Below, piece after piece: positions 3,468-17,431 of a DNA stretch of 21,121 bases; the stretch's first letter is position 1; every line of letters starts with the position of its first letter. The position numbers and the translations under genes are program-made. The stretch is from a virus: the IMG/VR virus record IMGVR_UViG_3300042562_001126, positions 1 through 21,121 of that record. One strand, written 5' to 3'. The notes beneath the pieces are model-generated. The model ran no database searches. It saw only the letters and a program-made list of their open reading frames with translations, and was not told the origin of the DNA.

Positions 3468-3523
3468 TATAATAAGTAATCCAAGAAAATATAAAATGGT
3501 ATATATTTTTGGCTAGGGATTGA

Positions 3524-3531
3524 TATTTATA
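3524..3531 (+). promoter_or_regulatory. TATTTATA element upstream of the tail-fibre gene
   Basis: The octamer TATTTATA at 3524-3531 lies 18 bases before the ATG at 3550 in an 82-base A/T-rich gap. The same octamer occurs at 15575-15582 and 18791-18798, in each case just upstream of a gene start. It resembles the T4-type late promoter -10 (TATAAATA) only loosely. It may be a late promoter read by the gp55-like sigma encoded here, or simply an A/T-rich initiation region. Confidence 0.3.
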
Positions 3532-3549
3532 ATCAAACGATTCATTATT

Positions 3550-4791
3550 ATGTCAAATCAAAGAACAACCCAACTACGAAAGCTCCTATCTGCCGAAGTC
3601 GCGCCGGGAGACTTAATTCCGATCATCGATGTAAGTGCATTAGAATCTGGTCCGTCCGGGGAAACAAAAGCGATTCTGGCGCAGGAACTGGGCGGCTATT
3701 TTATCAGTTCATCCTTGGCGAACTTGTCGTTCCCATATCAGGGATCACAGACTTCAAATGGGCTGTATTTTAGTCAAGCAACCTCGCCGACTGGAGATTT
3801 AAAAAAATATTGTTATGGCGAGTTCCCCGCGTTGGGTTCTAGTTTTACATTGTACGTTCGTGGGTTCGTTCCTTCCGATATAACGCAAAACTCAAGCAGG
3901 CGAGCAATATTTGGGGTTGGGGCCGATCCAACAGATATAAATGGCGGCGGCGAGTGTGCGTACATCGGAATATCAAACTTGGACTTGATTGCATATTTTT
4001 ACGACGACGGGACAAACGAGAGTGAAGTCGCCAGAATTAATAACTTTTTTCTCGATCACGCGGACCAAACGTTTGCCGCCGCGCTGGTTAAAGACTTGGG
4101 TGCCGGGGTCTACAAGTTAATTGCCAACGGAGATTACGTCGTCACCGCATCCCTCGTAGGGTCAATTAGTAACAGCTATATTGGCATGGGGAATGGACGA
4201 AACGTGGGACAAAACATAGAATGCGTAATTTATGAAGCACAAGTTTTCAGCGGACCTCTAACCGAGACGGCTGTTTCGCAATTATTTTACGGCGGGTCGA
4301 ACCGAAATCACCCCGATATTATTGCGTCGTATACTTCCGACAATTTAAATCCCGGCCCGAGCCAGTGGCTGGATTCGGTGGGTGGGTACCATTTACTACT
4401 ACCGACGGTTGGTGCCAGTGCGACCAACCCCAACAAAAACTTCAACTTAAATTTTAGGGTTGACAGTTCTGGCTATCTCGGCGGAGACGGGACGGATGCT
4501 TCAAAGCGCAACGTTTTACCAGAAAAGTATATTTTAACTTCGTGCGTAGTAGAGTCCGATTACAAACCACTACTTTCTATAGGAACTTCTGGGTCTTTTG
4601 CCCCGATCTCAGGTAGTGGAACTGGTTCTTGGGTTGATAATAGGGTACCATACACCAGTGCCTCCTATGGCGTAAATCCGCTGGCGCTTATATCACTCGG
4701 GATTGCACATCCAGACAGAAGTATTTACGTCAATTTTAGTGGAAGTGCATATCCATGCACATTCAGTTTTGAAGGATATGTCAGAAATTAA
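3550..4791 (+). CDS. LamG/concanavalin-like tail-fibre or adhesin protein
   Basis: The protein has 413 residues. The N-terminus (MSNQRTTQLRKLLSAEVAPG, then 'DLIPIIDVS' and 'GETKAI') looks like the conserved virion-attachment leader shared by tail proteins of many marine phages. Two regions then resemble LamG-type jelly-roll domains. The first is at about 80-235 (a 'GSSFTLYVRGFV' strand, 'YIGISN', 'AYFYDDGTNES', 'IYEAQVFSGPLT'). The second begins near 270 with the typical 'PDIIASYTSDNLN...WLDSVGGYHL'. Such domains usually bind carbohydrate or host surface. The start at ATG 3550 is preferred over an upstream non-ATG in-frame start. It lies 15 bases before the second adhesin gene, so the two are probably expressed together late in infection. 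Confidence 0.75.
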   Translation: MSNQRTTQLRKLLSAEVAPGDLIPIIDVSALESGPSGETKAILAQELGGYFISSSLANLSFPYQGSQTSNGLYFSQATSPTGDLKKYCYGEFPALGSSFTLYVRGFVPSDITQNSSRRAIFGVGADPTDINGGGECAYIGISNLDLIAYFYDDGTNESEVARINNFFLDHADQTFAAALVKDLGAGVYKLIANGDYVVTASLVGSISNSYIGMGNGRNVGQNIECVIYEAQVFSGPLTETAVSQLFYGGSNRNHPDIIASYTSDNLNPGPSQWLDSVGGYHLLLPTVGASATNPNKNFNLNFRVDSSGYLGGDGTDASKRNVLPEKYILTSCVVESDYKPLLSIGTSGSFAPISGSGTGSWVDNRVPYTSASYGVNPLALISLGIAHPDRSIYVNFSGSAYPCTFSFEGYVRN

Positions 4792-4806: not shown

Positions 4807-5898
4807 ATGGCGTATGATTCAATCCCAATTCACGGCAATCCGAATCGAGGAGTTTTCGGAGTCGTTGGTGAAAGAATGTCATCGGACATTGGCGCGGCTT
4901 TCATAAAAATTAGCGCAGACACACTGAATGTTGGATGGACTATTGTTGGGTCTTCGTCTTTTGAGGTTACTCCCACACCATCGGTGACCCCGTATTTAAC
5001 GCCGACCGTGACGCCAACCATAACGAACACGCCGACCGTGACGCCAACCAAAACGAACACGCCGACAAAAACTCCCACGGTAACGCCAACCCCAAGCATC
5101 ACTCCAACACACACCACTACGCCGTCGATTACACCAACTCTCACCGTTACTCCAACGGTTACTACAACGATTGGGTGGATTCCTACACCAACCCCCACGC
5201 CAATAACATATTATACATTATACACTACGTCGTCGGTTGCTTCTTATGGTCCGTCGGGAGAAGTTCCGAGCAGTTCCATCGTGCTGAGTCCACCGGGTGG
5301 GGTATACGCGTCTGGCACCGTGGTGACATTGTACGTCCTGCCAAATTTAAATTCGAGCGCGTCCTTATATAAAGACGGAGTTTTATTTGGTACATCGAAC
5401 ACTCTCATCACCACGACAGTGCCAATGCACTCCGATCACACAGCCAGTGTTGTGGTTGGCTGGCGAGACGTTCAGTGGCAAGTTGCAGCAAACCCGGTGG
5501 TGGGTGGATCTCCGTATGGCCCAAGCGGGCTCACGTCTGGTTACGCAAAAATGGGAGAAGTTATTACTATAACCGCGAACCCAACCGATTCGACGTTTGT
5601 TAGTTGGTCATATAGCAACTCTGTTCCCACGACTCCGACGAGCGCGACGACGGAAGTAACTCTCTCGGTGGACTCCACGAATCAATTCACCGCAAATTAT
5701 TCTCTAAATACTTATATTATCACCGCGAAGTACAGCGGAACCACCGGAACGTCTAGTTTTACATATTATGATTCCGCGGGGAACATCCAGACATATTATG
5801 GCACCGGCGTGCTGGGTGGCACCGTGGTCCCAGATCATTGTGGCAGGTTTGTTAGCCTATTGGCGGGCACGGCGGACCAAACAATATATCAATGTTAA
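4807..5898 (+). CDS. Tail adhesin with Thr-Pro-rich mucin-like stalk and InlB-like repeats
   Basis: The protein has 363 residues in four visible parts. Residues 1-52 are a conserved head ('NRGVFGVVGER', 'DIGAAFIK', 'NVGW') like that of phage tail accessory proteins. Residues ~53-135 are a Thr/Pro-rich stalk of TPT-V/S/K-TPT units. Residues ~140-310 are beta domains resembling divergent InlB B-repeats ('GEVITITANPTDSTFVSWS', 'QFTANYS'). A short C-terminal piece follows. The only two cysteines in the protein lie in the last 19 residues, which suggests a terminal disulfide or metal site. The stalk is the obvious candidate substrate for the glycosyltransferase operon that starts 65 bases downstream. 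The gene ends in TAA, without a clear terminator. Confidence 0.78.
   Translation: MAYDSIPIHGNPNRGVFGVVGERMSSDIGAAFIKISADTLNVGWTIVGSSSFEVTPTPSVTPYLTPTVTPTITNTPTVTPTKTNTPTKTPTVTPTPSITPTHTTTPSITPTLTVTPTVTTTIGWIPTPTPTPITYYTLYTTSSVASYGPSGEVPSSSIVLSPPGGVYASGTVVTLYVLPNLNSSASLYKDGVLFGTSNTLITTTVPMHSDHTASVVVGWRDVQWQVAANPVVGGSPYGPSGLTSGYAKMGEVITITANPTDSTFVSWSYSNSVPTTPTSATTEVTLSVDSTNQFTANYSLNTYIITAKYSGTTGTSSFTYYDSAGNIQTYYGTGVLGGTVVPDHCGRFVSLLAGTADQTIYQC
4999..5066 (+). repeat. 30-bp tandem repeat in the Thr-Pro stalk
   Basis: Two adjacent 30-bp units, 4999-5028 and 5029-5058, begin with the same 22 bases and differ at a single base (t versus a) in the following eight. A partial third copy starts at 5059. 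Each unit encodes ten residues of the form TPTVTPTxTN. The near-identity at DNA level shows recent unit duplication, so stalk length is likely variable between related phages. Confidence 0.8.
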
Positions 5899-5924
5899 AA
5901 AAGTGATAAAATTATTTATTATAA

Positions 5925-5940
5925 CTTGTATATATACAAG
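5925..5940. promoter_or_regulatory. Perfect 16-bp palindrome before the glycan operon
   Basis: The sequence CTTGTATATATACAAG is a perfect palindrome with no spacer. It sits in the 64-base gap between the adhesin gene and the first glycosyltransferase gene, 22 bases before the ATG at 5963. It has no following T-run, so it is not a classical terminator. It could be a dimeric-repressor operator. The central TATATATA could also be a promoter -10 region. Confidence 0.4.
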
Positions 5941-5962
5941 AAAGTAATAAACTAATGGTTAT

Positions 5963-7267
5963 ATGAGTAATAATAAAATTTTTATCCAAATTGCAGCGTA
6001 TCGCGATCCACAGCTAGTACCAACAATAAAAGACTGTATTGCCAATGCAAAAAATCCAGAGAATCTTGTTTTTTGCATCGCGTGGCAGCACGGCCCAGAA
6101 GAAAAGATCGACGAAATAAAAGATTTGCCGAATGTTAAAATCATTGACATTCCATATTTCGAAAGCAAGGGAGCGTGTTGGGCGAGGAATCAAATTCAAC
6201 AGCGATATGATGGCGAAGAATACACATTTCAATTAGATTCTCATCACAGATTTGTGAAAGATTGGGACGAGGTTGTAATCGGAATGTATAAGCAACTACA
6301 GGCGAAGGGTCACGCTAAACCATTACTTACCGGTTATATTCCATCATTCGACCCAGACAACGATCCGGGTGCGCGAATTCAGACGCCGTGGAGAATGGAT
6401 TTTGATCGGTTTATACCAGAAGGTGCGGTGTTCTTTTTACCGGCAAGTATAGACGATTGGAAAGAAAGAACTGAGCCGGTAGCATCGAGATTTTATTCGG
6501 CACACTTCTGTTTTACTGGTGGGCAGTTCTGTAAAGAAGTTCCACACGACCCGGAATATTATTTTCACGGGGAAGAAATAAGCATCGCCGCCCGGGCTTT
6601 TACGCATGGATATGATTTGTTTCATCCACACAGAGTCGTAGCGTGGCATGAATACACGCGCAAAGGCAGGACTAAACATTGGGACGATCATAACGGAAAC
6701 AATAAAAATATTACTCCCGACAAAAAAGATTGGGGTGAGCGAAACTCAGATAGCCACAAGCGCAATCGACGCTTATTTTCTATGGATGGAGAAAGCTATA
6801 ATAATATTTCGTGGGGACAATATGGGTTTGGGACAGAAAGAACGCTGCGAGATTATGAAGCGTACGCCGGCCTTCATTTTGGTAAGCGGGCGATTCAGCA
6901 ATCGACGCTGGACAAAAAGTATCCACCAAACACATTACATCAAAAATACGAAACTGCCGACGCGTGGGAGAATTCATTCCTGAGAGTATTCAAACACTGC
7001 ATAGATTTATCTCTGGACAAATTGAAACTGGACGATTATCATTTTTGGTGCGTCACGTTTGAGCGAGAAGACAATTCGCTGTTGTACCGGCAAGATGCCA
7101 ACACCGAAGAGTGCGCGAGACTATTGCGCGAAGCTCGCGACCCGAGCGGCGATAAGTACGTAAAGTTGTGGCGAACATTCGAAACTTCGGAGCGACCGCA
7201 CCATTGGGTCGTCTGGCCTAACAGCGCAAGTAAAGGTTGGGGCGAGAGGGTGACCGGAAACTTGTGA
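5963..7267 (+). CDS. GT60-like polypeptide N-acetylglucosaminyltransferase
   Basis: The protein has 434 residues. It opens with the strand 'KIFIQIAAYRDPQLVPTIKDC', followed by 'GACWARNQIQQRYDGEEYTFQLDSHHRF' (split around residues 70-97), in which D92-S-H94 is the nucleotide-sugar/metal-binding DxD/DxH motif. 'HGEEISIAARAFTHGYDLFHPH' follows later. This is the signature of the GlcNAc glycosyltransferase family (PF11397, CAZy GT60), whose characterised member adds GlcNAc to hydroxyproline in Skp1. The predicted reaction is transfer of GlcNAc (or a similar sugar) to a hydroxyl on protein. It is the first gene of the glycan operon and is directly downstream of the Thr-Pro stalk protein. It overlaps the next gene by 4 bases (GTGA). 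The ATG has A/T-rich DNA in front and no Shine-Dalgarno sequence. Confidence 0.85.
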   Translation: MSNNKIFIQIAAYRDPQLVPTIKDCIANAKNPENLVFCIAWQHGPEEKIDEIKDLPNVKIIDIPYFESKGACWARNQIQQRYDGEEYTFQLDSHHRFVKDWDEVVIGMYKQLQAKGHAKPLLTGYIPSFDPDNDPGARIQTPWRMDFDRFIPEGAVFFLPASIDDWKERTEPVASRFYSAHFCFTGGQFCKEVPHDPEYYFHGEEISIAARAFTHGYDLFHPHRVVAWHEYTRKGRTKHWDDHNGNNKNITPDKKDWGERNSDSHKRNRRLFSMDGESYNNISWGQYGFGTERTLRDYEAYAGLHFGKRAIQQSTLDKKYPPNTLHQKYETADAWENSFLRVFKHCIDLSLDKLKLDDYHFWCVTFEREDNSLLYRQDANTEECARLLREARDPSGDKYVKLWRTFETSERPHHWVVWPNSASKGWGERVTGNL

Positions 7268-8217
7268 AAACTATAGCATTTCACGACAATAATTTATGCT
7301 TGCGTGGAACGACCATTGCAATGTATGAGTACGCCGATTACAATGAGCGAATACTGGGAAATAAAAGTATTATATTGTCGTCTCCGGGCGGCGATCTGTC
7401 GGCGCTGCCCAAGTTTAAGCAGAGGTTTGCCGACGTTCATTTAATGCATTTCTGTGATTACGAAAAATTTTTGGTTTCTAGTGGAGCAGAGAAGCTCTAC
7501 ATCATAAAGTCGGGCGGAAAATCGGACGGCATTTGTTTGGGCAATTTTCCATCGTTGATTCATGTAGTTTTTCGAAGCAACGAACCACACGGCCACAGGT
7601 ACAAATATGTATCCGACTGGTTGGCGAGGGATCAAGGACACGACCCGACCACTCATTCGGTTCCACACATGGTGGAAAAGTTACCAGAGAGCGCGTATGA
7701 CTTGAGAGAAAAACTTGGTATATCAAAATCGAAGACAGTCTTTGGTTATTATGGCGGAGCAACCGAGTTTAATATCCGAGACGTGCATGAGGCGATAGCA
7801 GAAACAGTTAAAAAACGAGATGATATAGTGTTTCTTTTCATGAATGTAAACACGTTTTCTGACTCACACCCAAATATTATACACTTACCGGGAACATACG
7901 ACATGAGGGAGAAAGCCGCGTTCATTCGCGCGTGCGACGCGATGATTCATGCTAGAGGCGGTGGAGAAACATTCGGAAAAGCCGTTGGCGAGTTTGCTAT
8001 TGAGAACAAACCGATTGTTACATACGCCGATTCGGGAGAACGTTCTCATATAGAAATATTGGGAGAGCGTGGAATCTATTACCGTGGGTATGAATGTATA
8101 CTTGACATTCTTAATAACTTAAAAAAATACGCCATCAGGGATGATTATTACAAAGCGTATGATAACTATTCCCCGGAGATTATAATGGGAAAATTTGATA
8201 AACTTTTCTTACAATGA
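7264..8217 (+). CDS. GT-B fold glycosyltransferase (GT4-like)
   Basis: The start is GTG at 7264, overlapping the upstream TGA by 4 bases, and gives 317 residues. A TTG at 7237 is also in frame but would overlap by 31. The N-terminus 'IAFHDNNLCLRGTTIAMYEYA' looks like the first Rossmann half, with a GT-B acceptor loop. The C-terminal half shows 'VFGYYGGATEFNI', then 'AAFIRACDAMIHA' and RGGGETFGKAVGEFA at 231-245, where the GETFG is the E-x-F-G donor-binding motif of group-1 glycosyltransferases. It probably transfers a sugar in the same pathway as its neighbours. Donor and acceptor are unknown. It has no membrane segment, so it acts in the cytoplasm. Confidence 0.72.
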   Translation: MKTIAFHDNNLCLRGTTIAMYEYADYNERILGNKSIILSSPGGDLSALPKFKQRFADVHLMHFCDYEKFLVSSGAEKLYIIKSGGKSDGICLGNFPSLIHVVFRSNEPHGHRYKYVSDWLARDQGHDPTTHSVPHMVEKLPESAYDLREKLGISKSKTVFGYYGGATEFNIRDVHEAIAETVKKRDDIVFLFMNVNTFSDSHPNIIHLPGTYDMREKAAFIRACDAMIHARGGGETFGKAVGEFAIENKPIVTYADSGERSHIEILGERGIYYRGYECILDILNNLKKYAIRDDYYKAYDNYSPEIIMGKFDKLFLQ

Positions 8218-9047
8218 AAAAATTAAACATACTTGTCAGTGCAATTTGTTTCGTAAACCGGTCAAAACCGGGAGCAGAAATTTATATAAAATTCGCCAAG
8301 CGTCAGATAGCAGACGTGATGTCGAAAACCCCGTACGATTACAGATTAATAACGAACGAGGCGCATCAATTCGAGGATGTTGTCGCTGCCTTTCCAGCCC
8401 GGGTAACAATTACCGAGGACTTACTAGTTGGCGAGCGCATCATGGTTGGACCATTCAACCAAATGTTGAAGTATAAGACGATGCGCGACGTTCCGGCCAA
8501 ATATGACTGGCTGTGGTACATGGACTGTGACGCGGGTATCTGTGAAACAGTGAATACCGACAAAATTGATGCATTAGCTGATGCGTGGGTGTCTGCCGGG
8601 TTTGATATAATTGGAACCAGAACCAACGCGGTGTTGTCGGGGGAATTATTGGACCACGAACGTAAAATAAAGGAGTGGGAGGCAAAGAAAGCTGCTGGGG
8701 AACCCAATCCATATTTAGTCACAAATTTATTTAGCGCCAAGTTTATTTTCTACAATGTATCCAGCGAGAGCGGCCCGTTCGAGTGGATGGATGCCTGCTT
8801 GCCAAGCGAGCATGTACTATTCATAAAAAATAGCGAAAAACTTGCCAAGATGGCGGCGACATTTAAAAAATTCAACGAAAAGTTTGAAAAACAAACGATT
8901 CCCCTTGTTACTTGGGATATGGAGGCATTTGAAATCGGGGTTTCGGCTAAAATCGCCGGATACAAGATGGGCGATTTCGGAAATGCCCACGGCGACGACT
9001 TCAAAGTGCGCTTCAATTACAATAACTGGGAAAAGGTAAAATACTAA
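8214..9047 (+). CDS. Putative GT-A fold glycosyltransferase with DCD motif
   Basis: The protein has 277 residues and starts at ATG 8214 in a 4-base ATGA overlap with the upstream stop. It begins with a hydrophobic strand (LNILVSAICFV). The key feature is 'WLWYMDCDAGI' around 99-109: D104-C-D106 after a hydrophobic strand is the classical DxD divalent-metal/nucleotide-sugar motif of GT-A enzymes. A later acidic stretch, 'TWDMEAFEIGVSAKIAGYKMG', is the usual position of the catalytic or acceptor-side loop. I cannot assign a CAZy family with confidence. It is third in the glycan operon, one base before the next gene. Confidence 0.65.
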   Translation: MKKLNILVSAICFVNRSKPGAEIYIKFAKRQIADVMSKTPYDYRLITNEAHQFEDVVAAFPARVTITEDLLVGERIMVGPFNQMLKYKTMRDVPAKYDWLWYMDCDAGICETVNTDKIDALADAWVSAGFDIIGTRTNAVLSGELLDHERKIKEWEAKKAAGEPNPYLVTNLFSAKFIFYNVSSESGPFEWMDACLPSEHVLFIKNSEKLAKMAATFKKFNEKFEKQTIPLVTWDMEAFEIGVSAKIAGYKMGDFGNAHGDDFKVRFNYNNWEKVKY

Positions 9048-9048
9048 C

Positions 9049-9819
9049 GTGATAGAAATACTTAACAACTTTGCATCATCCGGGCGCGGACTGGGAAATA
9101 AACTATTCACGTATGCCCTCGCGAGGATTCTCTCCGACGAGCTTGACTTAAATATATCAGTGCCGGTAAACTCGTTTGTTGAGCGCGGCAACGTGATTAA
9201 ATCCTTCCCGTACGGGGACGTAACTTCAAAAAGAACTATAATGTCCCCAAGTACATATGTGTCAGATCGCTCGGTATACAACATAGGATTAACAAAGACG
9301 CTTGAAAATTGTCGAGATAGCCACGTCGCAATTGATGGGTATTTTTTAAAGTATGGATATATAAAGGCACACAAAAGAATGATCAAAGAAATGTATTCTG
9401 ATCTTGTGTCTCCGACGCAAAAAGAAAACACCGTGTTGGTTATGTTTAGACACCCGAACGTCGATCCAAAGTTCGCCTTGCCGGATGAATATTATTTGGA
9501 CGTAATAAAGAAATTGTCATTTGATAAATTATATTTAAGTTACGATACATACGATAAACACAAAACGATAGTCGAGAAGTTAAAAGCTTTATATAACACG
9601 GAAGTAATTGACCTTACTGTATTAGATATGATGAAAGCGATCACAGAACACAAAACATTAGTATGCGCACAAGGTACCTATGCATTTTGGGCAGCGTTCT
9701 TGTCCAACGCAGATAAAATTTACTTTCCTATCACACTGGAGGGTCCGAATTGTAGAACCGAGTGGTCGGTCGATTTAAAAGTTGACGACGAAGCGAGATA
9801 TATTCACGTGGAAGTATGA
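9049..9819 (+). CDS. GT11-like (alpha-1,2-fucosyltransferase-like) glycosyltransferase
   Basis: The protein has 256 residues, with a GTG start at 9049 two bases after the previous stop. Residues 12-24 (GRGLGNKLFTYAL) match the GLGNQMFQYA opening of GT11 fucosyltransferases (PF01531). 'DGYFLKYGYI' near 97-105 matches the family GYFQ segment. 'QGTYAFWAAFLSNADKIYFP' at 208-227 matches the C-terminal S-T-F-x-WWAA-L element. The normally strict HIRRGDY donor motif is degenerate here (F-R-H-P-N-V-D at 133-139), keeping only the R and D positions. It may therefore use a different donor or bind GDP-fucose differently. Expected product: a fucosylated glycan made in the cytoplasm with its operon partners. 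Confidence 0.68.
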   Translation: MIEILNNFASSGRGLGNKLFTYALARILSDELDLNISVPVNSFVERGNVIKSFPYGDVTSKRTIMSPSTYVSDRSVYNIGLTKTLENCRDSHVAIDGYFLKYGYIKAHKRMIKEMYSDLVSPTQKENTVLVMFRHPNVDPKFALPDEYYLDVIKKLSFDKLYLSYDTYDKHKTIVEKLKALYNTEVIDLTVLDMMKAITEHKTLVCAQGTYAFWAAFLSNADKIYFPITLEGPNCRTEWSVDLKVDDEARYIHVEV

Positions 9820-10757
9820 AAAACATTAAGTTTACATGTAGCTGGTGGTCGGATTCTAAAAAGCTAACGCGCCGGGTACTGGACCAATTCCTCACGGAAT
9901 CCAGCGACTTGTTCGATTATCGGATAGTGCACGACGACAGTTACGACATCATCGTATTCTTTGGTTACGTCTCGGAGCCAATTAAACCAACGGCCAACGC
10001 ATATCTGTTCCCACAGGAGCCAACATGGACCGGTACGCATCAAAAGCATTTTAATGGTATGCCTAACCTGACTGTGTATGGATTTGATCGTACTAATTAT
10101 GGCGGGGATTGTAAGTTTGTCGAAACGTTTGCCCATATGTTTTACGGTGGCATTGGCCCGGACGGAGAAGGGTGGGACGACTGGAAGTATAATAACATAA
10201 AGAACATTGCACCAAAAAAGACGATGAACATGTGTTCTACGATCTCTAGTCGCGGTGACGATTGGACCAGTTTCTCCGGTGGGTGTATGTATCAGCATAG
10301 ATGCGGCCTTGTTAGAAACATTCATCACCTCAACTTTATAGATTTTTTCGGTGGCTGGCAATTAAACGGTGCCAATATAAAAAGCTACGCGTTGCGTAAG
10401 TTCGACGCATTATTACCCTATAAATTCACGCTGACGGTTGAAAACTCAAATGAAAATTACTACGTTTCCGAAAAGTTTTTTGATCCAATATTGACGAATA
10501 GCATACCGATATACTTTGGTTGTAAAAATATAAAAACTCTTTTTCCGGAGAATGGTTATATTTTACTGGACAATTTGACAGATCACACCAAGATAGTTTC
10601 CCAATTGAATTATATAAACGACAATGCCGACAGACTTTACGGCGAAATGCTCCCGGAAGCTTTAAAAATAAAGCGGCGATATTTTAACGAACTTAATCCA
10701 TTAAACAAAATACTTGCACATGACTCGCCTAGTAATACATCAACCCAAAAACTTTGA
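9816..10757 (+). CDS. GT10-like (alpha-1,3/4-fucosyltransferase) glycosyltransferase
   Basis: The protein has 313 residues, with an ATGA overlap to the upstream gene. The C-terminal half carries the GT10 donor-binding signature: FTLTVENSNENYYVSEKFF at 204-222, then 'TNSIPIYFGCKNI' (compare F-ENS-x-x-x-YVTEK and VPVVLG in GT10, PF00852). The N-terminal half has 'LFPQEPTW', a typical acceptor-domain element. The family transfers fucose from GDP-fucose to GlcNAc or Glc in a glycan chain. Three Cys-containing segments (140-163) might be structural. The 3' end overlaps the next gene by 38 bases. With the GT11-like neighbour it suggests a multiply fucosylated glycan. Confidence 0.82.
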   Translation: MKNIKFTCSWWSDSKKLTRRVLDQFLTESSDLFDYRIVHDDSYDIIVFFGYVSEPIKPTANAYLFPQEPTWTGTHQKHFNGMPNLTVYGFDRTNYGGDCKFVETFAHMFYGGIGPDGEGWDDWKYNNIKNIAPKKTMNMCSTISSRGDDWTSFSGGCMYQHRCGLVRNIHHLNFIDFFGGWQLNGANIKSYALRKFDALLPYKFTLTVENSNENYYVSEKFFDPILTNSIPIYFGCKNIKTLFPENGYILLDNLTDHTKIVSQLNYINDNADRLYGEMLPEALKIKRRYFNELNPLNKILAHDSPSNTSTQKL

Positions 10758-11685
10758 GAGTAGACGTTACAGATACTATAATTTAGTATTTGACGCAATT
10801 ACGGCGAAACTTAGAGAAAGCTTCGACGTGATGGAGTGTGGTTACTATAAGTACGCCAATCAAGGATATTCTCCGACGTTGTTGTTACATAACGCCACGC
10901 GATATAACGATACCAATATCCAACTATTGGAATGTGAAATGATCATAGAAAACTATGAAACAAAAGAAATCAAGGTATTATCTGCGTCGGACGACTTGAC
11001 CGGGGCCATATTGAATTTCAAGGGAAATCCGCTTTTAACCAAGACTCTGGTTGCCCAGTTTGATCGTAAAAAAATACACTCGCATTTACCGGACGAAAAC
11101 GACCAGAAAAAAATTTGTCCGTGGGTTTACTTTCCAACGAACGATTATGATTTTGACGCAATAGAAAATCGGCGGCACAACAAAACGATACTCGGTACTA
11201 TCAACCAAAAATTTTATTTTAGAGGCTCGTCTCTGGAATGTCGTCGGATTGTAGCGGGATTTAATCCGGAGTTGTTTACCGGTGGTGGGCCAATCGGCGG
11301 ATTTGAATCATATACCGACGAGTTATTGAATTACCGACTGGGATTTTCCATCGCAGGCAGGGGAGAGTTTTGCTATCGGGACATAGAATACATGGCAATG
11401 GGCGTTCCATACATACGCTTTGAATATAATAGCGAAATGGCAGAACCATTGGTTCCTGACTTCCATTACATTTCCGTGCCGCGGCCACCCGATGCTCCAA
11501 ACGACCGGGATTTACGACCAGAACATGCACCGTTGATTGAGGCGAGGTTTCTAGAAGTACGGAATGATATTGACTATTTGAATTTTATCGCTAATAATGC
11601 ACTGGACTATTATAACAAGCACGTTAAAATGGTCGGGTGTGTTAACCACACGCTAAAACTTTTAGAAATTGACAAATGGCTATGA
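10720..11685 (+). CDS. Putative glycosyltransferase of unassigned family
   Basis: The start used is the ATG at 10720 (MTRLVIHQPK), giving 321 residues and a 38-base overlap with the previous gene. A TTG two codons earlier is also possible. The most telling region is 205-230, 'YRLGFSIAGRGEFCYRDIEYMAMGVP', quoted here in part. Its GRGEFCYRDIEYMAMG resembles the nucleotide-sugar-binding region of exostosin-like GT-B enzymes, where a conserved Glu follows a Gly loop. The context, inside a run of glycosyltransferases, supports the call. The donor, the acceptor and the exact family are not determined. No transmembrane segment is visible. Confidence 0.55.
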   Translation: MTRLVIHQPKNFESRRYRYYNLVFDAITAKLRESFDVMECGYYKYANQGYSPTLLLHNATRYNDTNIQLLECEMIIENYETKEIKVLSASDDLTGAILNFKGNPLLTKTLVAQFDRKKIHSHLPDENDQKKICPWVYFPTNDYDFDAIENRRHNKTILGTINQKFYFRGSSLECRRIVAGFNPELFTGGGPIGGFESYTDELLNYRLGFSIAGRGEFCYRDIEYMAMGVPYIRFEYNSEMAEPLVPDFHYISVPRPPDAPNDRDLRPEHAPLIEARFLEVRNDIDYLNFIANNALDYYNKHVKMVGCVNHTLKLLEIDKWL

Positions 11686-12305
11686 ACATAGAAATTACAA
11701 AGCAAGTAAACTTGGACCAAAACGACGGTCTATCGTCCGTTTTCGGGCTAGCTGCGCAACAACATCACGATGTTTATCAGGTGTTCTACGACTTTATACA
11801 GGACACGAAACCGGCGAGAATATTGGAAATTGGCACGGCACTTGGTGGGTTCACTCAATTTTTAAAGCGGTGTACAAGCGATTTACAATTGAATACTGAT
11901 ATACGTTCTTATGACATTCACAGAATGAATTGGTATAAAGATATTATAGCGGAGGGCGTCGACGTGCGTGTGGAGAATATATTTAACGCCGACTACTCGG
12001 AATGTTTTCCAGAAGTAGTGGAATATATAAAATCGCCGGGACTCACGGTTGTGTTATGCGATGGTGGAGACAAAATTAGAGAGTTTAGATTACTTTCCAA
12101 GCACATTAAATCGGGAGACATTATCATGGCACACGATTATGCCGAGTCGGTAGAAGTATTCAACTCTACAATAAAAGGAACGCGTTGGAACTGGTGTGAG
12201 ATTACCGCAGGTGACATAGAACAGAGCGCGGGCGAAAATAGTCTTCTATATTATAGCAAGCAGAAATTCGAAAATGTGGTCTGGACTTGCAGAATAAAAT
12301 TATGA
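11676..12305 (+). CDS. Class I SAM-dependent methyltransferase
   Basis: The protein has 209 residues (ATG at 11676). An in-frame ATG at 11682 would make a 4-base ATGA overlap of the kind repeated throughout this operon, so either start is possible. ILEIGTALGGFTQFL at 49-63 is motif I of Rossmann methyltransferases (SAM-binding glycine loop). 'VVLCDGGDKIREF' and 'SGDIIMAHDY' correspond to motifs III-IV. The layout resembles the Methyltransf_24/cephalosporin-hydroxylase type that methylates sugars or small molecules. The likely role is O-methylation of a sugar made by this operon. It overlaps the next gene by 4 bases. Confidence 0.75.
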   Translation: MAMNIEITKQVNLDQNDGLSSVFGLAAQQHHDVYQVFYDFIQDTKPARILEIGTALGGFTQFLKRCTSDLQLNTDIRSYDIHRMNWYKDIIAEGVDVRVENIFNADYSECFPEVVEYIKSPGLTVVLCDGGDKIREFRLLSKHIKSGDIIMAHDYAESVEVFNSTIKGTRWNWCEITAGDIEQSAGENSLLYYSKQKFENVVWTCRIKL

Positions 12306-14698
12306 CAAATGCCGATCTAGTAATGCGACAAAAAGATCTTCCCGTCGACGGAAGCATTATAAGTTACGAACAAAAACGAGAATTATCACTTGCGTTAGAC
12401 GCGGTATTAAGTAAAAACGTAGACGGCGAGGTAGTAGAGCTTGGTTGTTATGTTGGAGAATCCAGTAAAATATTACGTCGGACGCTCGACATAACCAAAT
12501 CAGATAAGCGACTACATGTGTATGACTCGTTCGAGGGATTGCCCCCGCTACATGATTGCGAAAAAAATTGTGGGTGGAAGCCGGGTACATTGAATACTAC
12601 AGAAGATGTGCTCGTCAAAAATTTCCAAAGAAACGGACTAGAACCCCCGATCATTTGTAAAGGGTGGTTCAAGGATATACCAGACGACAAGCTTCCACAG
12701 CAAATTTGTTTCGCCTTTTTGGACGGAGATTTCTATGATTCTATTTACGACAGCTTAATAAAAATTTATGACCGGGTAGTTAACGGTGGAATTGTGTTAT
12801 TTCACGATTATGGGAGAGCAGACCTACCGGGAGTAGAAACCGCCGTAAAAAATTTCTTCGAATCGAGGAATATAAAAATTAATCCAAAGAAGCATTGCGA
12901 GCAACTGTGGTCTATTACAAAAGGCACAGAAAACGCAGAACACGAAAAAATCGAAGTAATTAAGGTAGAAGAAGTTAAAAATATTATAAGTACATCACAA
13001 TCTATGCATAGCACTACACTAGTCACCGGCTTATTTGATTTGAAGCGCGGAGAATTGGACACCGGATTCAAGCGTCCATTTTCTCAATATCTCATGCATT
13101 TTGAGCGGCTACTAAAGGCGTGCAAGGATACTCCAATGCTGGTTTACGTAGACAAGGAGCATGAACAGTTTGTGTTAAAAGCGCGGGAAGGATCGGTCGG
13201 CACAGACATTCGATTCAGAACCGCCGAAGAATTTAAAACGTGGTTTCCATTTTATAACAAGGTAAATGAAATAAGACAAAAACCGGAATGGTATAATCAG
13301 GCAGGGTGGCTCGCTGAATCCACACAGGCTCGCTTGGATTTATATAATCCACTCGTCATGAGCAAGATGTTTATGCTTCACGACGCGTCAATTTTTAATC
13401 CGTTTGATACTGACAATTTTTGTTGGATAGACGCCGGATTGACGCAGACAGTGCATCCGGGATATTTTAGTCACGACAAAGTAATAGAGCGACTGGACCC
13501 ACTATTACAAAAATTCTTGTTTGTTTGCTACCCGTACGAATCTAACGCGGAAATACATGGATTCACGGCGGATGCGATGAACAAATACGCCAACGCGAAA
13601 GTCAATCGGGTTGCTAGAGGCGGATTTTTCGGGGGAAGTAAAAAGGCAATATCTCAGGTCAATACTGTATATTATAGCCTGTTGAATGAAACATTGAATG
13701 CTGGTTATATGGGCACGGAAGAAAGTGTGTTCAGCCTTATTACATATTTGAATCCAGAGCTTACGAACATAGAGATGATTGACGGCAATGGATTTATTTC
13801 TACGTTCTTTGAGCGGGTAAAGAAGATGCCAATCCCGAAGAAAGAAGTATTAATTTCTAAGAGCGACGTACCAGAAGGTGCGGAATACTTTCAGAGTGAA
13901 GAAGAAGTCGCGATGAATAAAGAGGGCAAGGGCGTTTACTTATACATTACATGTTTTAACTATCCTCAACAGCTTCAAATGCTGTTGGATTCATTCGAAA
14001 AATCTAATCCGGAGCTATTGTCTCAAACTACAAAATTCTTGATTGACAACAGCGTCGATGAAACGGTTTTCCCCAAGTTTGACGAGATTGCTAAAAAGTA
14101 TGGTTTCACGGTGATTAGAAAAGGCAATCTTGGGGTGTGTGGGGCTAGGCAGTGGGCCGCGCAACACTTTCATGATAACAAAGGAAAATACATTCTTTGG
14201 TTCGAGGACGATATGTTAATGGAACCAGAAAACAAGCTATGTAAGAATGGATTGAACATGCATTGCGACAATTGGTTGGACAAATGCATTAAAATTGTCG
14301 AGGAAGAAAAATTAGATTTCTTGAAGATTTCATTTTCTGAGTTTTTTGGGGATCATCACAAGCAGTGGAGTTGGCACAATGTTCCACAGGCAGTTAAAAA
14401 TAAATACTTTCCGGACGGTAAATGTAGAATGAAATGGAAAGAGTCAGGATGTATTGATGGGTTGAGTTATTTGATCGGGCAGGTATATTACAGCAACTGG
14501 CCTAGTTGCGTGTCAAGAGCAGGGAACTGGAAGATATTTTTAGAAACTGTTTATGCTAGTCCATTTGAGCAGACAATGATGAGCGCAGCATTCCAATTGT
14601 CTATGAAAGGGCGATTGCGGTCGGCGGTTCTTATGTCGAGTTTGGTCAATCACAATCGAGTTCATCATTACGACCGGGCCATTCGTAAAGAAGTTTAA
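12302..14698 (+). CDS. Trimodular fusion: TylF-type O-methyltransferase + HtrL/YibB-type glycosyltransferase + GT2-like glycosyltransferase
   Basis: The protein has 798 residues, starting at ATG 12302 (ATGA overlap). Module 1, about 20-207, is a TylF/macrocin O-methyltransferase (PF05711), with 'VVELGCYVGESSKIL', 'VYDSFEGLPP', 'FLDGDFYDS' and 'GGIVLFHDYG'. Module 2, about 237-505, resembles the HtrL/YibB family (PF09612), with 'TLVTGLFDLKRGEL', 'WIDAGL' at 375-380 and 'GFFGGSKKAI'. Module 3, about 545-760, is a GT-A enzyme with 'VYLYITCFNYPQQLQ' and 'YILWFEDDMLM' (EDD, 635-637) as the DxD site. The three activities would methylate a sugar and add two sugars. A short linker with an acidic, charge-rich stretch (210-230) separates modules 1 and 2. 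I see no frameshift. It ends the operon. Confidence 0.75.
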   Translation: MTNADLVMRQKDLPVDGSIISYEQKRELSLALDAVLSKNVDGEVVELGCYVGESSKILRRTLDITKSDKRLHVYDSFEGLPPLHDCEKNCGWKPGTLNTTEDVLVKNFQRNGLEPPIICKGWFKDIPDDKLPQQICFAFLDGDFYDSIYDSLIKIYDRVVNGGIVLFHDYGRADLPGVETAVKNFFESRNIKINPKKHCEQLWSITKGTENAEHEKIEVIKVEEVKNIISTSQSMHSTTLVTGLFDLKRGELDTGFKRPFSQYLMHFERLLKACKDTPMLVYVDKEHEQFVLKAREGSVGTDIRFRTAEEFKTWFPFYNKVNEIRQKPEWYNQAGWLAESTQARLDLYNPLVMSKMFMLHDASIFNPFDTDNFCWIDAGLTQTVHPGYFSHDKVIERLDPLLQKFLFVCYPYESNAEIHGFTADAMNKYANAKVNRVARGGFFGGSKKAISQVNTVYYSLLNETLNAGYMGTEESVFSLITYLNPELTNIEMIDGNGFISTFFERVKKMPIPKKEVLISKSDVPEGAEYFQSEEEVAMNKEGKGVYLYITCFNYPQQLQMLLDSFEKSNPELLSQTTKFLIDNSVDETVFPKFDEIAKKYGFTVIRKGNLGVCGARQWAAQHFHDNKGKYILWFEDDMLMEPENKLCKNGLNMHCDNWLDKCIKIVEEEKLDFLKISFSEFFGDHHKQWSWHNVPQAVKNKYFPDGKCRMKWKESGCIDGLSYLIGQVYYSNWPSCVSRAGNWKIFLETVYASPFEQTMMSAAFQLSMKGRLRSAVLMSSLVNHNRVHHYDRAIRKEV

Positions 14699-14709
14699 GT
14701 TTTTATAAG

Positions 14710-14737
14710 TTGACAAACCCCGTAACACGTGTAGTGT
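14710..14737 (+). promoter_or_regulatory. Possible sigma70-like promoter before the HD-hydrolase gene
   Basis: TTGACA at 14710-14715 is followed after 16 bases by TAGTGT (14732-14737), a weak -10 with three of six matches. It lies in the 55-base gap after the glycan operon, 16 bases before the ATG at 14754. I see no intrinsic terminator for the upstream operon, so read-through is also possible. Confidence 0.35.
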
Positions 14738-14753
14738 GTTGGGACGAATTCTT

Positions 14754-15431
14754 ATGAATAAAAAGTTAAACAATGAATTAGATTTGACAGAAAAGCAAGT
14801 TCAGGAAAACTATGAATATTTTCTTGAATTTTTAAATGAAAAGTTCTCCGGTGAACGCTTGAAGGGATTGCTAACGATGTATGCCGAGGAAAACCTTGGG
14901 TTACAGTTGGCTACCGCCCCCGCGTCTGGGAAAAAGACATATCACTATGCCCATACAGGTGGATACCTTCAACACGTGATGGATGTTGAGTTGGCAAGCC
15001 GGGGAGTTCAAAAAGTTTATACCACAATCAAGGGCGAAATTGATTACACCGAGGAAGAACGCATCATGGCCGCGCTGCACCACGATCTTGGTAAGTTGGG
15101 GGATGAGACTGGTGCATATTATCTCCCTAACACGGAGCAGTGGTCTATCGACAAGCAGGGATTGATTTTCAAACACAACACAAAGGCTCAATTCTGGAAA
15201 GTCGCGGATAGGGCGCTATACAATTTACAACGGTTTGGGATCGTGTTGACTTGGAAGGAAGTATTAGCAATTAAGTTGGCAGACGGACTTTACGACGAAG
15301 CTGCCGAGTTTTATCTCAAGACGTACGACCCAGAAAAGGGACTAAAAACCAATCTTCCACGCATCATTCACGTTGCCGATTACTTGGCCTGCAACGCGGA
15401 AAACGACATTTACAAGCGCGAAAAAGTATAA
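14754..15431 (+). CDS. HD-domain metal-dependent phosphohydrolase
   Basis: The protein has 225 residues, starting at ATG 14754 (MNKKLNNELD). A GTG at 14736 is in frame but lies next to the promoter-like sequence. Metal-binding residues of the HD superfamily are visible: His74 in 'YLQHVMDVE', His110-Asp111 in 'ALHHDLGKLGD', and Asp209 in 'IIHVADYLA'. Nearby His64 and His67 may also contribute. The family hydrolyses nucleotides or phosphodiesters. Similar proteins are frequent in T4-like marine phages, but their substrate is not established. It is followed by a structured non-coding segment rather than by another gene. Confidence 0.85.
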   Translation: MNKKLNNELDLTEKQVQENYEYFLEFLNEKFSGERLKGLLTMYAEENLGLQLATAPASGKKTYHYAHTGGYLQHVMDVELASRGVQKVYTTIKGEIDYTEEERIMAALHHDLGKLGDETGAYYLPNTEQWSIDKQGLIFKHNTKAQFWKVADRALYNLQRFGIVLTWKEVLAIKLADGLYDEAAEFYLKTYDPEKGLKTNLPRIIHVADYLACNAENDIYKREKV

Positions 15432-15441
15432 ACTTCTTGAC

Positions 15442-15569
15442 AAGACTCCGGATTTATGTATCGTGGAGTCTTCTAAACGAGGATGTTTCGGCCTCATTAA
15501 ATCCCCGAAACTGGTGGAGGACGTTCAATCAAGAACAGTCCCTAACTCAGCCCCCGAAATCGGGGGCTG
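15442..15569 (+). ncRNA. Candidate structured RNA with kissing loops, ending in a terminator
   Basis: This lies between the HD-hydrolase stop (15431) and the membrane-protein start (15588). Four hairpins can be drawn. H1: 15442-15449 pairs with 15465-15472 (8 bp, AAGACTCC/GGAGTCTT). H2: 15485-15491 with 15505-15511 (7 bp, GTTTCGG/CCGAAAC). H3: 15519-15526 with 15533-15541 (8 bp with one bulged A). H4: the terminator. The H1 loop contains GGATTTA (15450-15456) and the H2 loop contains TAAATCC (15498-15504), a perfect 7-bp loop-loop match. I know of no named RNA family that fits. It may be a small RNA or a leader for the downstream gene. The 5' end is not defined. Confidence 0.5.
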
Positions 15570-16816: not shown

Positions 16817-17431
16817 ATGAGTTACAAAATTGTTAAGAATAAAGATTTCTTGCACAAAAAGACCGAACCGGTCACTTCTGTCGAAGAAGGCCAAGAAATA
16901 GCAAATAAGTTAATACAGGCTTTAGACGAATTAAAATTCGGCCTCGGCCTTTCCGCCAATCAAATAGGAATACAAAAAAGTGTATCGGTAATAAGGGTTA
17001 AAAAAGACATGCCCCCGATTATATTGATGAATCCAGTAATATCGGAGGAGAGCAACGAAAAAATAGTATATGTAGAGGGGTGTGTAAGTTTGCCCGGGAA
17101 ACAAACAAAAACAGTTCGAAGCCTGAAAATTCAAGTGTCGACTCTCAACCACGCGAATGTATTACCGTTTGGTCCCACCGCCGATCCGCTTACACAAGAC
17201 TCAATTGCCAAAGACTATGGAGTTTTAGAGTCCGTCTGCGTACAACACGAAATAGATCATTTACGTGGCGTGTTGATGATCGATGATGGAGTCAGATTCG
17301 TAGAAACTCCACTCCGGACCGTTAAACACGGCAGAAATGACAAGGTGATGGTAGAAAAAGATGGTGAAATGCAATATATAAAGTATAAGAAGGCATTGCA
17401 TTTATTGAACGAAGGGTGGAAAATTAAATGA
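16817..17431 (+). CDS. def: Peptide deformylase
   Basis: The protein has 204 residues with all three deformylase motifs intact: GLGLSANQIG at 42-51 (GxGLAAxQ-type), EGCVSLPG at 87-94 (zinc-ligand Cys89) and QHEIDHL at 143-149 (HExxH with both zinc histidines and the catalytic Glu). It removes the formyl group from nascent proteins (PF01327) and is a common auxiliary gene in marine T4-like phages. After the catalytic core a ~45-residue charged extension ('KHGRNDKVMVEKDGEMQYIK...') is unusual for phage versions, which are often minimal. It overlaps the next small gene by 4 bases (ATGA), which supports the unit 16817-17864. Confidence 0.95.
   Translation: MSYKIVKNKDFLHKKTEPVTSVEEGQEIANKLIQALDELKFGLGLSANQIGIQKSVSVIRVKKDMPPIILMNPVISEESNEKIVYVEGCVSLPGKQTKTVRSLKIQVSTLNHANVLPFGPTADPLTQDSIAKDYGVLESVCVQHEIDHLRGVLMIDDGVRFVETPLRTVKHGRNDKVMVEKDGEMQYIKYKKALHLLNEGWKIK

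Follow-up and report, generated by a model that had tools for sequence, protein, structure and literature searches.

IMG/VR record IMGVR_UViG_3300042562_001126 is a viral fragment from an uncultured source, and the window analysed here is the entire record of 21,121 bases. It encodes a protein with a threonine/proline (Thr/Pro) stalk, directly followed by a cassette of glycan enzymes that is led by a glycosyltransferase (GT) of family GT60. Based on sequence, structure models and analogy with characterized enzymes, these genes quite probably make up a locus by which the phage itself carries out mucin-type O-glycosylation of the stalk in the cytoplasm. The modified residue, the sugars, their order and the function are inferred as follows. 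GT60 would put the first sugar, most likely alpha-linked N-acetylglucosamine (GlcNAc) and possibly another N-acetylhexosamine (HexNAc), on stalk Thr. Exchangeable middle genes, which in this case encode methyltransferases and, besides two fucosyltransferase-like enzymes, further transferases, would then extend and cap the glycan together with the terminal YibB-GT2 enzyme before virion assembly. The virion would thereby gain a stiff, protease-resistant glycan bristle that differs between strains and may hide epitopes or tune adhesion. The genes and domains concerned are:

4807..4962, + strand: N-terminal domain of the stalk protein, common to Thr/Pro stalk proteins (pattern from alignment)
4966..5205, + strand: Thr/Pro stalk, 80 residues, proposed O-glycosylation acceptor (composition versus shuffles)
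5206..5898, + strand: C-terminal remainder of the stalk protein, with repeats that look beta-rich, without Pfam match
5963..7267, + strand: GT60 glycosyltransferase, proposed mucin-type O-glycan initiator (PF11397)
7237..8217, + strand: variable cassette, weak GT-B (GT4-like) glycosyltransferase (PHROG 2170, E 1.7e-4)
8214..9047, + strand: variable cassette, family-less open reading frame (ORF) with a DCD motif
9049..9819, + strand: variable cassette, GT11-like (alpha-1,2-fucosyltransferase-like; PHROG 2644, E 6.5e-7)
9816..10757, + strand: variable cassette, GT10 (alpha-1,3/4-fucosyltransferase-like; PF00852, E 6.3e-13)
10714..11685, + strand: variable cassette, family-less ORF, GT-B-like by appearance (homologues)
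11676..12305, + strand: variable cassette, FtsJ/Methyltransf_24-like methyltransferase (PF01728, E 2.9e-6)
12287..12994, + strand: TylF-type O-methyltransferase domain, N-terminal part of a fusion (PF05711, E 2.2e-25)
12995..14698, + strand: constant bookend, HtrL_YibB (E 1e-16) and GT2 (E 8.5e-5) domains

The stalk ORF (4807-5898) encodes 363 aa, and the Thr-Pro stalk of about 80 residues described in the first-pass annotation is confirmed at residues 54-133 (4966-5205), where 35 Thr and 19 Pro are present per 80 residues; elsewhere, Thr makes up 13% of the protein and Pro 5%. Thr and Pro together reach 55 in the richest 80-residue segment, whereas 2,000 shuffles gave 31 on average and never more than 39, so that the protein has the dense Thr/Ser/Pro tract beyond chance that defines a mucin-like acceptor. 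As Thr and Pro codons are mixed, the tract is no DNA microsatellite. The tract is preceded by a domain of ~50 residues with the pattern 'IPxHGNP...VFG..G...D.G..Y.K...D..N.GW', which is a probable virion anchor, while the C-terminal part used as a query retrieved the 100%-identical contig only. The longer contig L003/G001 encodes 100%-identical proteins, followed by downstream genes that are baseplate-like by eye. The label of tail protein given earlier fits the tail-region position and the architecture, from which it is taken; no named tail family was matched.

The layout of eight co-oriented genes directly behind the stalk gene with GT60 in the lead was recovered as well. The ORFs start at 5963, 7237, 8214, 9049, 9816, 10714, 11676 and 12287, their ends overlap or abut, and no strong terminator-like hairpin was found on the + strand from the stalk gene through the cassette end. 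GT60 matches PF11397 with 245.7 bits against a curated cut-off of 21 (E 1.2e-72). From the family matches, the assignments of GT60, GT10, TylF, YibB and GT2 are firm and that of GT11 is weaker, as it comes from PHROG and the Pfam match (PF01531) has an E of just 0.061; thus, of the two fucosyltransferases proposed behind GT60, the GT10 enzyme stands and the GT11 one is less secure. Similarly, the cassette had been described as nearly all glycan enzymes, which is firm for several products, while ORFs 8214 and 10714 had no match in Pfam, PHROG or NCBIfam family searches and 7237 has a weak GT-B match. Judging from the DCD motif, the 8214 product is a probable GT-A transferase. A 50% homologue of this protein is present in L047 and a 57% homologue of the 7237 protein in L031/L032, and homologues of the 10714 protein, at no more than 47%, lie within other GT60 cassettes. 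The last gene (12287..14698) is a three-part fusion of TylF, YibB and GT2, whose TylF domain matches PDB sugar O-methyltransferases (E 7e-14).

The GT60 structure model (pLDDT 92) points to the enzymes that start mucin-type glycans. In particular, Foldseek ranks polypeptide N-acetylgalactosaminyltransferases (ppGalNAc-Ts) first (7e-10), the nearest PDB structure is ppGalNAc-T2 (Z 22.8, 277 residues, 3.5 A), and the top 29 PDB entries are all ppGalNAc-Ts (Z 22.8-19.2), the next fold family being GlfT2 (Z 17.5). Most ppGalNAc-T alignments stop near residue 340-405 of the model, without a Pfam lectin match, and a PDB sequence search returned no GT60 entry. The DxH motif is represented by DSH at 92-94, with D92 and H94 invariant across 51 sequences; DxH in place of DxD has been described for GT27/GT60, and GT60 has been placed with GT27, with a common mode of Ser/Thr O-glycosylation cited (PMC7185993). 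Among GT60 enzymes, T. cruzi TcOGNT1 forms GlcNAc-alpha-Thr on mucin-like proteins (PMC9472816), and Gnt1 adds GlcNAc to hydroxyproline of Skp1 (PMC6939170). By model and analogy, the window enzyme is predicted to be a polypeptide HexNAc transferase. In its structure model, YibB-GT2 folds into two GT-A domains, of which the first comes closest to GT6 enzymes (Z about 13) and the second to B4GALNT1/POMGnT1/GnTI (Z 14-15); a role in early glycan extension is proposed.

The linkage of GT60 with stalk genes was evaluated in a viral set of 80 loci with GT60 relatives. In the close clade, defined by a GT60 identity of about 68% or more, a Thr/Pro ORF lies within two genes upstream of GT60 in 12/13 distinct loci, against a mean of 4.2 under randomized position (P<=0.0005, which is optimistic and to be discounted, as related records share ancestry and are non-independent). 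Thr/Pro ORFs account for 14/52 near genes vs 2/96 far genes in this clade. The stalk N-terminal domain was then used to scan viral contigs without recourse to GT60; an alignment of 23 rows was too variable as a query and a six-sequence set worked. All distinct proteins strongly matching the domain bear a Thr/Pro stretch, and the 13 contigs found carry GT60 in 13/13 cases. Twelve of these contigs were GT60 contigs already in the set; in the remaining one, L487, the corresponding position after the PhoH and stalk genes is occupied by a GT60 of just 40% identity. That a distant GT60 has been swapped in at this place speaks for a functional link to the stalk and not for a passive hot-spot. TPTPTP-coding DNA is present in 27/40 GT60 records vs 4/35 control contigs and, among records of at least 100 kb, in 12/14 with GT60 (two of the 12 having a single site) vs 1/5 controls and 0/7 named phages without GT60. 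Screening in the opposite direction, for GT60 in contigs with long Thr/Pro arrays, gave no more than a hint (5/50 contigs vs 0/50). A search with the HD-region gene 14736 for sister phages free of the operon gave six loci and no clean empty site, GT60 being present in 5/6 records and the sixth (L088) being cut just upstream of the gene. A literature search on phage Thr-Pro glycosylation or mucin-like virions retrieved nothing relevant within the library covered.

GT60 and YibB-GT2 form constant bookends around exchangeable transferases, a capsule-locus-like organization for protein glycans that is new here. YibB-GT2 lies downstream of GT60 in 38/48 distinct loci, the phages XacN1 and RAS14 included, and the 110 genes between the two fall into about 50 families, among them GT10, GT25, methyltransferases, carbamoyltransferases, a sulfotransferase and a pyruvyltransferase. 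In the close clade, GT60 identity is mostly 70-80%, yet most of the window's middle genes are missing; some of them are present in more distant loci, which indicates exchange independent of the bookends. Thus, the fucosylated and methylated glycan initially proposed suits the window and does not extend to the system in general, where GT25 or carbamoyltransferases are found instead. As for GDP-fucose synthesis, which the first-pass annotation had raised, a GDP-fucose/NDP-sugar (nucleoside diphosphate sugar) dehydratase (PF16363) is present in 5/18 large GT60 records; given this inconsistency, sugar donors are probably supplied by the host. Bacterial capsule and O-antigen loci likewise have constant flanking genes around an exchangeable transferase set; unlike them, the window cassette has no polymerase or export genes, and its product would be a glycan linked to a virion protein.

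A similar situation is also present in bacteria. Among 84,980 species genomes scanned, 80 GT60 loci were found, in which Thr/Pro ORFs represent 8/244 genes within two positions of GT60 vs 1/407 far genes. They adjoin GT60 in Saprospiraceae, Jiulongibacter, Acidobacteria and Sphingomonas metagenome-assembled genomes (MAGs), among others; at least the Planctomycetaceae contig L375 resembles phage DNA (crAss-type muzzle domain). Three bacterial Thr/Pro proteins beside GT60 start with twin-arginine motifs, which fits cytoplasmic modification before export. Several bacterial GT60 genes likewise have the YibB-GT2 partner next to them, and in L401 a phage-type tail sheath gene lies three genes from GT60. 

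Some of these loci deserve description. In Jiulongibacter sediminis (L370:7948-15148), two GT60 genes surround a Thr/Pro protein with a twin-arginine (Tat) signal, and carbamoyltransferase and FkbM-YibB genes complete this chromosomal version of the locus. In Sphingomonas MAGs (L398:6381-9995, L400:6394-9999), a Thr/Pro protein of about 1,200 aa with an Rv2525c glycoside-hydrolase-like domain and an N-terminus that reads as baseplate-type is encoded directly before GT60, and possibly derives from a phage-tail-like particle. In Enterobacteriaceae, Neisseriaceae and Burkholderiaceae, a divergent GT60 (L426:7856-13152, L380:8850-14800, L377:8723-14626) immediately follows a fimbrial gene (PF00419, MrkD-like); in Serratia (L426), it is placed between TssA-like (ImpA_N) and DotU/OmpA genes in a cluster resembling a type VI secretion system (T6SS), where it may conceivably glycosylate T6SS-linked proteins.

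Among cultured phages, the jumbo phage XacN1 encodes a GT60 (ORF334) of 49.9% identity. Thr/Pro tracts are encoded by 15 of its genes, and its Thr/Pro proteins include ORF369, ORF370 and ORF372; three of the 15 genes lie near that for the tail sheath. Proteomics of XacN1 identified at least two glycoproteins, and the authors suggested phage-encoded glycosylation (PMC5852040; raw data under PXD008065). All in all, the idea of a GT60-led glycosylation of the stalk is well supported on comparative grounds by gene adjacency, recovery by the N-terminal domain, the bacterial parallels, the ppGalNAc-T fold and the XacN1 glycoproteins.

Several observations weigh against this interpretation, and some of them favour an alternative in which GT60 acts on another structural virion protein and Thr/Pro stalks are plain common linkers. 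We regard this alternative as unlikely. In the distant phage clade, the stalk gene adjoins GT60 in 4/35 loci, without enrichment, and stalk genes, if present, are mostly elsewhere in the record. Thr/Pro repeats also exist without a detected GT60 (45/50 contigs), and the portion of the XacN1 report considered leaves its glycoproteins unnamed (PMC5852040). GT60 loci lacking a Thr/Pro protein, which the first-pass annotation had counted as adverse, were seen in fragments or in records with Thr/Ser-Gly repeats only. G027 and G029 have no TPTPTP site, and several GT60 contigs of 40-98 kb have neither TPTPTP nor Thr/Ser-Gly repeats. The long Thr/Ser-Gly repeat proteins of G029 and G027 (L329-L344), both large GT60 phage records, are a possible alternative acceptor. 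Moreover, no Thr/Pro stretch was found at the divergent GT60 genes next to fimbrial-adhesin-like (Enterobacteriaceae, Burkholderiaceae) or T6SS (Serratia) genes, and the GT60 family may thus have other acceptors. However, the stalk-domain search with GT60 in 13/13 contigs, the in-place replacement of GT60 and the bacterial Thr/Pro ORFs beside GT60 all favour the stalk.

It is equally improbable that the cluster modifies a host surface glycan, such as capsule or lipopolysaccharide (LPS), and lies behind the stalk gene because that place is a cargo hot-spot. For phages (cyanophages), clusters of glycosyltransferase genes have been interpreted as systems for capsule modification (PMC7824862), and an LPS-type GT25 occurs among the middle genes. 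However, the search for families in the cassette revealed no flippase, polymerase, ligase or membrane priming transferase. Its initiator is a member of a family of polypeptide transferases and has the ppGalNAc-T fold, and Thr/Pro ORFs abut bacterial GT60 genes too.

Less probable still is the Skp1-like route, in which GT60 would transfer GlcNAc to hydroxylated prolines of the stalk, as Gnt1 does on Skp1 (PMC6939170). This part of the first-pass annotation found no support: TcOGNT1 is a better precedent, and the stalk has more Thr than Pro (35 vs 19). The 2-oxoglutarate-Fe(II) oxygenase family PF13640 occurs in 2/18 large GT60 records, which are mostly fragments, and in none of the nearest ones, with host enzymes or other oxygenase families being possible sources. 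Hydroxyproline is probably unneeded for stalk glycosylation, because the T. cruzi GT60 uses Thr and the search with PF13640 found no prolyl hydroxylase in the nearest contigs. A role in DNA glucosylation was rejected, since no DNA-base-modification families were seen in the cassette.

The proposed stalk-glycosylating locus can be compared with known systems. Like TcOGNT1, the window enzyme would be an initiating polypeptide HexNAc transferase of the same CAZy family with a mucin-like acceptor used on Thr; unlike this protist Golgi enzyme, it is phage-encoded, presumably cytoplasmic, and part of an operon with extenders beside its proposed substrate. Animal ppGalNAc-Ts (GT27) share the nearest solved fold, DxH and mucin-type acceptors, but belong to another CAZy family, are about 12% identical, and have a ricin-type lectin domain for which a Pfam search of the phage GT60 identified no counterpart. 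The Skp1 pathway of Dictyostelium/Toxoplasma also starts with GT60 and continues with more sugars, but requires hydroxyproline on one cytosolic protein. Mycobacteriophages likewise bear virion-protein glycans (capsid, tail tube) as a shield (Freeman et al. 2023 cited in PMC12619734), but at capsid and tail tube C-termini, and the portion of that source considered does not mention GT60 or Thr/Pro stalks.

Eukaryotes are the chief setting in which a polypeptide transferase is known to initiate mucin-type O-glycosylation. We are evenly divided on a wider proposal, namely that GT60, YibB-GT2 and an exchangeable cassette represent a widespread prokaryotic mucin-type system that coats Thr/Pro stalks of phage tails, phage-tail-like bacterial particles and Tat-exported surface proteins, works as a virion-glycan 'serotype' locus, and may be the origin of protist GT60. 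A phage-encoded counterpart of the eukaryotic process, bringing its own substrate and interchangeable sugar enzymes, would explain the many Thr/Pro proteins of some jumbo phages, make virion glycan 'serotypes' testable for phage-host and phage-immune recognition, and provide a compact toolbox for O-glycosylated stalks in the bacterial cytoplasm. XacN1 and RAS14, as cultured GT60 phages, are directly usable for testing.

The main window genes are on the + strand, with the exception of one small upstream minus-strand ORF, and PhoH and peptide deformylase are also encoded. The features flanking the stalk gene and the cassette are:

3520..4791, + strand: upstream tail-region protein (ORF; homologues upstream of GT60 in the close clade)
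14736..15431, + strand: MobH-like (weak) conserved neighbour after the cassette (PHROG 5889; weak NCBIfam MobH)
15548..15569, + strand: intrinsic-terminator-like hairpin (9-pair stem, 8 G-C, then a T-rich tail)

The L487 homologue of the 3520..4791 protein (774 aa) itself bears a Thr/Pro stretch. The 14736..15431 protein is probably outside the glycan pathway, and the hairpin may end the transcription unit. The peptide deformylase gene (16817-17431), downstream of the cassette, is conserved in the close clade.

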